Assembly (NCBI GenBank): GCA_030749235.1
Contig: JASMKM010000079.1
Span: 1 to 63,450 of the forward strand
Source of the DNA: Planctomycetota bacterium
GTDB taxonomy: Bacteria > Planctomycetota > UBA1135
Direction of reading: 5' to 3'
Length of the DNA: 63,450 nt
Numbering within the stretch: position 1 is the stretch's first letter; each line of letters opens with the position of its first letter. Shown here in pieces: positions 15,941 to 17,661 of the stretch. The notes beneath the pieces are model-generated. The model was not told the DNA's origin. It searched no databases and saw only the letters and a list, made by a program, of their open reading frames with translations. Both the position numbers and the translations under genes were made by a program.

Positions 15941-15980
15941 GCGGCAAAGCGACCTGGCACCATTCGTGAGCGTATGCCCT

Positions 15981-16022
15981 CAAAACGAAGAGGGCATGCC
16001 TGCCGAAGCAGCCATGCCCTCT
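15981..16022 (-). terminator. intrinsic terminator of the histone gene
   Basis: On the minus strand, 27 nt after the histone stop, a 10-bp perfect stem (AGAGGGCATG with CATGCCCTCT, 15989-15998 and 16013-16022) encloses an inner TGC-TTCG-GCA hairpin, giving a stable UUCG tetraloop. It is followed by TCGTTTTG (15988-15981). The plus-strand flank lacks a T run, so it serves the minus-strand gene. Confidence 0.75.
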
Positions 16023-16049
16023 CGTGCTCGTCTCTACGAGCGAACCTGC

Positions 16050-16367
16050 TTACAGATCCTGTGGACGCAAGGTCTTGCGGCCGTTCTCGGTGGCGCGGTT
16101 CTCTGCAGCCTTGATCGCATCGCGCACGAATGAATCGAGGGCGCCGTAGAAGTCGCCGGAGACGTTGCACTGAGCAACCGCGTTCTTTGTGCGGCTCTTG
16201 GAGATGATCAACTCAGTGACCTTAGCCTTCTTGGCACCTCGCTTGGTGGCCTTTTTCTTAGCAGCCTTCTTCTTTGGAGCAGCCTTACGGGCGGCTTTCT
16301 TCTTAGGAGCAGCCTTCTTACCGGCCTTCTTCGTTACCTTCTTCGCAGCTTTCTTTCTGGCAGCCAT
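16050..16367 (-). CDS. lysine-tailed bacterial histone (H1-like tail plus short-alpha3 histone fold)
   Basis: Starting at ATG 16367 gives 105 residues. Residues 2-49 are a Lys/Ala/Pro tail of the H1/KAAK type (K-K-A-A-K-K-V-T-K-K and A-P-K-K-K-A-A repeats). Residues 50-105 read as a histone fold: a short helix I-S-K-S-R-T-K-N-A-V, a loop with N-V-S-G-D, a long helix F-Y-G-A-L-D-S-F-V-R-D-A-I-K-A-A-E-N-R-A, then N-G-R-K-T-L-R-P-Q-D-L. The R-K-T-x-R-P-x-D-L ending is the loop-2/alpha-3 signature of archaeal histones, with alpha 3 cut to a few residues as in known bacterial histones. DNA binding in the nucleoid is inferred. The frame extends upstream, but that part lacks coding character. Confidence 0.85.
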   Translation of the reverse strand: MAARKKAAKKVTKKAGKKAAPKKKAARKAAPKKKAAKKKATKRGAKKAKVTELIISKSRTKNAVAQCNVSGDFYGALDSFVRDAIKAAENRATENGRKTLRPQDL

Positions 16368-16461
16368 GATGATTCTTGTGGTTTGTTGTTTACGTTCCGC
16401 AGGAGGCGGAAACGGAGGAAAGTGGTGAAAGAACGGCGTATTCGCCATTCCCTGCGCGGAT

Positions 16462-16489
16462 TGTGTAATAACGACGAGGTCTAAGTCAA
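16462..16489 (-). promoter_or_regulatory. sigma70-like promoter of the histone gene
   Basis: On the minus strand TTGACT (16489-16484), a 16-bp spacer and TACACA (16467-16462) form a good housekeeping promoter. It predicts a 5' leader of about 90 nt before ATG 16367. The leader contains a hairpin TTCCGC-CTCCT-GCGGAA (16411-16395). Confidence 0.5.
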
Positions 16490-16545
16490 CGTGGAAATGC
16501 CGAATTTGGCCAGGAAATCTAAATTCTGGCACGTATGCTCTTACC

Positions 16546-17661
16546 GTGCTTACCCAGTTGACCCTCCTCTTTGCCCTCTTTCAGGGCAGTGCGTCACCGC
16601 CACCGGACAACTCTGAACTGGTCCTTTCCGATCAGGATCAGAACATCATGCGACGCTTTGACTCGCTTCCAAGCGAAGAGAAGCAACGCATCGCTGAGGA
16701 GTTGCAGCAGGAAATCTTGCACATCGAGCACCCACTGTGCGATGCCGCCCAGGCCCTGCTCGACGACCGCAAATTGCGCAACGTCGACCAAGTCCAAAAG
16801 GGCCCGCTGCAAGTCTACGACGCCAAGGAATACGCTCCGAAACTGAGGCTCAAGACTAGAACCCTCACCGACAAGAGCAAGATCTGGCGGTCCTTCCGCA
16901 AGAAGTTCTTCCCCATTGGCCTGCCCGATCGCAACCACTTGTGGGATTGGGATTATGGTCTGAATCGGCTGCTGAAGCCCCCTACGCGTGCCCCCCGCGA
17001 TGTCGTCATCGATCTTTTGTACGGCCGTTGGCCGCAGGATGGCAAGCTTGCCGCCTACGCAGAAGGCGCCTTGGACCGCAACAATGGGCTGGATGCGAGC
17101 GCTGATTACTTCGCCCACGCTTATCGCGACCGAAACGGCAAGGTTTACCAAGGGATCCCGCTTTACGAGATCTGGAACGCGCAGACCACCTTCGGCATTT
17201 CCGATGTGGAATCGATTGCCTTCCTGCGTCTAGTGGTCAACGACACGCGCCTTACGTCACCGATTCCAGGCAAGGAGCATGACGGTATCTACACCCAAAT
17301 CGAGGAACATTTTGAAATTTTCCGAGAGTACCGCAGCCTGCGCTCGGCCTTGGCGCAGCGTTTCCTCGATCCCAATGGAGTGCTGCCTACCCAGTTCCAG
17401 GGCATCGCAGCCAACCTCGATAAGGCCTGGGTGTTAATGGAACACAAGCCGCGGCGCATGGCCAAGATGCTTGAGCGTCACCCCACCCGCAAGAGTTTCC
17501 TTTCGGCCTTGAGCAAGGAGCTGGAGGCACTCGGCACTGATAAGGAGGTGCCGCATTGGTCCGAACATTGGCAAGCGCGCAACAGCTTGCCCGGCATAAT
17601 CCGCGCCACGACGCTGGACTTCCTGGCCGACGAAGGTCTGCTTGGCTTCCGCCGTCGATAG
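16546..17661 (+). CDS. putative secreted protein of unknown function
   Basis: I do not recognise this 371-residue protein. The N-terminus from GTG 16546 is hydrophobic (L-T-Q-L-T-L-L-F-A-L-F-Q-G-S-A-S, a likely signal peptide cut near 17) and is followed by a charged helical region (S-E-E-K-Q-R-I-A-E-E-L-Q-Q-E). Later parts are rich in W, R and K (W-R-S-F-R-K-K-F-F-P near 120, H-L-W-D-W-D-Y-G-L-N-R near 136) and contain I-P-L-Y-E-I-W-N-A-Q-T-T-F near 205. No catalytic motif is evident. Codon use resembles its neighbours. It lies 16 nt before alr on the same strand and 178 nt beyond the start of the divergent histone gene. Confidence 0.65.
   Translation: MLTQLTLLFALFQGSASPPPDNSELVLSDQDQNIMRRFDSLPSEEKQRIAEELQQEILHIEHPLCDAAQALLDDRKLRNVDQVQKGPLQVYDAKEYAPKLRLKTRTLTDKSKIWRSFRKKFFPIGLPDRNHLWDWDYGLNRLLKPPTRAPRDVVIDLLYGRWPQDGKLAAYAEGALDRNNGLDASADYFAHAYRDRNGKVYQGIPLYEIWNAQTTFGISDVESIAFLRLVVNDTRLTSPIPGKEHDGIYTQIEEHFEIFREYRSLRSALAQRFLDPNGVLPTQFQGIAANLDKAWVLMEHKPRRMAKMLERHPTRKSFLSALSKELEALGTDKEVPHWSEHWQARNSLPGIIRATTLDFLADEGLLGFRRR

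Follow-up and report, generated by a model that had tools for sequence, protein, structure and literature searches.

Some planctomycete nucleoids are unusually condensed, as in Gemmata, from which no histone was known as of 2012 (PMC3440768). A lysine-tailed histone encoded in a 63,450-nt stretch of planctomycete DNA (the window, by which we mean this whole stretch) is a candidate for a condensing protein in its order. Bacterial face-to-face (FtF) histones have come to light only recently. At issue here are the class of histone to which the protein belongs and the contribution of its tail.

The gene and its product

On the plus strand the reading frame across 16050-16367 contains an internal stop, which rules out a gene in that direction; the minus-strand translation is a 105-aa protein consisting of a tail, MAARKKAAKKVTKKAGKKAAPKKKAARKAAPKKKAAKKKATKRGAKKAK, followed by a core, VTELIISKSRTKNAVAQCNVSGDFYGALDSFVRDAIKAAENRATENGRKTLRPQDL, and the stop codon (Table 1). 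The initial annotation had proposed an ORF with such a tail/core layout at this position: both the ORF and the layout stand, while the strand had to be corrected to minus. Its boundaries (tail 2-49, core 50-105) agree with the minus-strand translation, as does the motif R-K-T-L-R-P-Q-D-L that it had placed immediately before the stop, the C-terminal end of the core being GRKTLRPQDL-stop. Beyond the ATG, the frame stays open in the upstream direction as far as a potential GTG start at 16532. Because the N-termini of nearly all relatives read MA[A/P/K]KK, we take the ATG as the start; the longer ORF was rejected, its extension not being conserved among relatives.

Table 1. Features of the histone locus, in positions of the window
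Feature	Positions	Strand	Basis or remark
Histone gene	16050..16367	minus	105 codons + stop; ATG 16367, stop ends 16050
Lys-rich N-terminal tail, residues 1-49	16221..16367	minus	composition, low pLDDT, tandem repeat
Tandem repeat in the tail	16255..16332		period 30 bp, 2.6 copies
Histone-fold core, residues 50-105	16053..16220	minus	AlphaFold2, profile matches, Foldseek
Codons of residues 65-66 (A-Q), site of the K-K pair of short-tailed relatives	16170..16175	minus	column counts, HLp alignment
FtF dimer-dimer and loop-2 landmarks R91, N95, R97, T99, D104	16053..16097	minus	invariant in 47/47 aligned homologues
Promoter-like TTGACT-18 nt-CACAAT	16460..16489	minus	upstream of histone gene; consensus match only; 1 found vs 0.1 expected
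Probable intrinsic terminator: strong hairpin GAGGGCATGGCTGCTTCGGCAGGCATGCCCTC, then TTCGTTTT	15973..16023	minus	downstream of stop
371-aa protein	16546..17661	plus	without Pfam match

The ORF is real rather than a chance one, as the core recurs in relatives and the differences fall at third codon positions: between the window and a sister species the core shows 14 nucleotide differences, of which third positions account for 13 (dN 0.008, dS 0.46), and in the tail dN is likewise below dS (0.05 and 0.29). The gene is thus under purifying selection. A genome search found the core as a single copy in its own genome; it is present in 55 of 61 related genomes (E <= 0.01) and in 31 of the 38 genomes listed for the same order, and the phylum yields more divergent cores in 128 of 292 genomes. 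The share of GCT among alanine codons is 0.48 in the histone gene against 0.14 in neighbouring genes, a hint, though no proof, of high expression.

The histone-fold core and its class

Profile matches, an AlphaFold2 model and landmark residues identify the core as an α3-truncated FtF histone closest to the solved structures HTkC and HLp. The prediction, made on single chains, gives the core a pLDDT above 90 with the alignment and of 94 when the core is folded alone, and comprises a short α1 (57-63), α2 (71-94), a loop 2 with RKT, and a one-turn α3 (102-104) with the stop after residue 105, in line with the α3 of 3-4 residues that marks the truncated class. A profile of 47 cores retrieved the solved structures HTkC (9f2c, 1.8e-10) and HLp (9qt0, 6.5e-6); HBb was not among its matches at E <= 10. 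Foldseek ranked HTkC, HLp and then HBb (probability 1.00, TM 0.80-0.89), the top matches being histone folds only; its E-values (0.004-0.02) are weak because the fold is tiny. The five invariant landmark residues correspond to R41, N45, R47, T49 and D54 of D4GZE0, and to R49, N53, R55, T57 and D62 of HLp. The histone fold with truncated α3 and basic tail proposed by the initial annotation is therefore borne out: the single-chain model is a histone fold, and the profile matched solved histones, instead of the H1/Hc1-type tails whose sole retrieval would have spoken against the proposal. The nucleosomal histones of archaea and eukaryotes, with an α3 of about 10 residues and a longer α2, differ from the core with its single-turn α3, and the fit of HMfB to the full model is poor (TM 0.27-0.39).

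HLp of Leptospira perolatii is a bacterial FtF histone whose tetramer wraps about 60 bp (PMC12701072; PDB 9QT0, 9QT1, 9QT2). The window protein resembles it in fold (TM about 0.87, 28% identity), truncated α3, the tetramer residues R49-N53-R55 and the L2 loop, and differs in a core about two residues shorter in loop 1, in an alanine at the position of K21, and in a much longer Lys/Ala tail. The best match of the core in both sequence profile and fold is HTkC (9F2C), given as an archaeal FtF histone of Thermococcus kodakarensis by Schwab et al. (2024; PMC11390915); its 59-aa chain lacks a comparable tail, and archaeal FtF histones are there described as generally tail-less. The same study reports positive tails on bacterial FtF histones, without a conserved tail sequence, and FtF histones in Planctomycetota, which share family, phylum and tail character with the window protein, itself covered by that description. 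Hence, the combination of fold and basic tail is not new but was already described. What is new here is the range of tail lengths, the loss of the tail in two genomes and the inverse relation between tail and core charge, of which we found no mention in the accessible part of that publication.

The lysine-rich tail and the charge of the core

Residues 1-47 of the tail comprise 21 K, 15 A and 3 R and no acidic residue, and the tail is predicted to be disordered (AlphaFold2 pLDDT about 46-54 over residues 1-50); its net charge is about +24, as against +2 to +3 for the core. Against Pfam HC2 it scores 17.5 bits, below the cut-off of 40 and compositional in nature, and all NCBIfam matches lie far below their cut-offs, so that the protein does not fall into an H1/Hc1/Hc2-like family. 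Its likeness to H1, Hc1/Hc2 and similar KAAK proteins is confined to tail composition; to our knowledge, these proteins have no histone fold. A search for a second tail-like protein in its own genome found none.

Tail length among relatives varies between 0 and about 56 residues, with medians of about 42 in the window's family and 34, 25 and 14 in families f8, f6 and f5, respectively. The tail of one relative (L022) contains 27-bp tandem units, and such units, as in the window gene, readily allow the length to change; the chlamydial Hc2 is a known case of a protein whose size varies through repeats (PMC2848022). Two genomes of one genus (G015 and G023; loci L018 and L019) encode a 56-aa tail-less histone while their relatives are long-tailed, a natural deletion of the tail. 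A hidden frameshift does not explain it, as neither genome has a K-rich frame upstream, nor does a separate K-rich protein replacing the tail: the tail search gave only a weak match without a surrounding K-rich frame in G015, and none in G023. As these tail-less relatives persist, the tail is not indispensable. At a single conserved locus, the relatives carry one histone with closely similar cores and different tails, a series supplied by nature in which the function of the tail can be studied with no need for engineered variants. Long lysine tails also occur outside this order, a more distant planctomycete FtF-like histone (L180, in G265) having a long (KKKTTKKAT)n tail.

The longer the tail, the less basic the core: across 94 distinct sequences Spearman's rho is -0.63. 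For 51 genomes arranged on a tree of GlmM, a single-gene tree independent of the histone, rho between tail and core charge is -0.70 (-0.49 within the window's family and -0.79 outside it), and with independent contrasts r is -0.37 (P = 0.007), weakening to P = 0.05 upon removal of G015, G023 and G018, the three short-tailed genomes of that family. The difference is visible in a residue pair at the end of α1, which is lysine in 39/49 and 37/49 of the short-tailed forms, and has a mean charge near zero or slightly negative in the 35 long-tailed ones; the first position is a gap in 15 of these 35 and lacks net positive charge in the remainder. L024 is one short-tailed form with the K-K pair. In the window protein this first position is residue 65, which aligns with K21 of HLp, a DNA-contacting residue in both crystal forms. 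The genome G018 falls inside the long-tailed family of the window, yet its histone has a tail of +4 and carries the K-K pair. Contrary to the trend, tail-less sequences of the Krumholzibacteriota type (tail charge 0-2) have an intermediate mean core charge of 4.8, as against 6.4 at tail charges of +3 to +8.

This pattern is at least compatible with a tail acting on DNA. Tail and core might constitute a coupled charge system across the order, in which a long tail goes with loss of the lysine pair, loss or shortening of the tail with regained core charge, and the tail has come to replace a DNA contact of the histone fold; we put this forward tentatively, at a little under even odds. The trade-off is a lead rather than proof, because it was noticed before it was tested, the GlmM tree is of a single gene, and many of the short-tailed sequences are related. 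If the coupled charge system is real, it would show one way in which bacterial chromatin evolved from a tail-less to a tail-dependent form.

Proposed function and genomic setting

The protein is probably used in wrapping and packing DNA. Our main reading, to which we assign a probability of about 0.8, is that it is a chromosomal, single-copy FtF histone: the 56-residue fold would form handshake dimers, two of these would join face to face in a ring-like tetramer wrapping about 50-60 bp without sequence preference, by analogy with HLp, and the disordered tails would offset the phosphate charge of the wrapped DNA or of DNA nearby, aiding compaction. With the tail charge given above for each chain, the tails would bring near +96 to a tetramer, if it forms. 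Part of the DNA contact that other members make through the lysines at the end of α1 has probably passed to the tail in the long-tailed ones. The histone would presumably be abundant in the nucleoid. The idea of a one-gene "core plus linker" arrangement, raised in the initial annotation, is a plausible hypothesis, and one that applies beyond this gene. The same genome has two HU-family genes (L051 and L052, at positions 90-359 of contig C72 and 24361-24627 of contig C16), and HU genes were found in all eight genomes checked, among relatives with and without tails. With HU also present, the histone is not necessarily the chief packing protein, and would share the DNA-packing task.

Alternatively, the protein could be a tailed counterpart of the dimer histone HBb (Bd0055) of Bdellovibrio bacteriovorus, bending or coating DNA in dimeric form: HBb shares the truncated α3, and its chains, though those of a dimer and not of an FtF tetramer in the literature, superpose on the core model (TM 0.86-0.89) as well as HLp does. 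Yet the core profile that finds HTkC and HLp misses HBb, and the FtF dimer-dimer contact residues are invariant; we regard this as quite improbable, and the FtF tetramers, rather than the HBb that had been proposed as reference, as the closest class. Conversely, the tail might act in the manner of H1 or Hc1/Hc2, bridging and condensing DNA by charge rather than wrapping it, with the fold as a mere dimerisation handle. The charge difference between tail and core, the weak compositional match to HC2 and the variation of tail length by tandem units, as in the chlamydial protein, are in keeping with this. It is nonetheless unlikely, as the core, including all wrapping and tetramer residues, is conserved far better than the tail, and the same core is retained in relatives that have no tail.

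A role in specific regulation or in RNA binding, rather than in general DNA packing, might be entertained for this basic-tailed protein on the grounds that the HU found in every genome checked may already cover general packing. The protein, however, contains no sequence-reading element, and those FtF histones that have been studied are abundant and bind DNA without specificity, which makes such a role very improbable; an FtF histone packing DNA remains our preferred reading.

The gene order in the window is ftsH, folP, cdaA, ybbR, glmM, tsaB (+), histone (-), the 371-aa protein (+) and alr (+), the names ftsH, folP and glmM having been assigned directly from the sequence. Of the named loci in the order that extend far enough, most have glmM, usually with tsaB, on one flank and on the strand opposite to the histone, and alr is found on the other flank in the window's family and at several loci outside it. 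Given this fixed place, the histone gene has most likely been inherited vertically. A phage or viral origin was considered and rejected: a search of viral contigs found no histone relatives, and no PHROG match was convincing, the weak matches to PHROG and to Pfam (e.g. Secretin_N_2) being taken as chance. The named records with the histone are mostly of Planctomycetota, including the complete genome of Planctomycetes bacterium Poly30, a presumably cultured organism whose homologue (L116) is long-tailed; those of more distant relatives, mostly metagenome bins with the depositors' taxon labels, are assigned to Krumholzibacteriota, Methylomirabilota, Latescibacterota and others.

The promoter-like site and the downstream hairpin are consistent with a single-gene transcript. 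The near-perfect hairpin, with a UUCG loop and TTCGTTTT next on the minus strand, lies between the convergent tsaB and histone genes; it was not among the sites listed by a simple consensus terminator scan and was judged from folding instead, its energy having z = -4.9 relative to shuffles. On the other side, the gene for the 371-aa protein is divergent from the histone gene, with which it has a common intergenic region, and is kept beside it in about 20 named loci.
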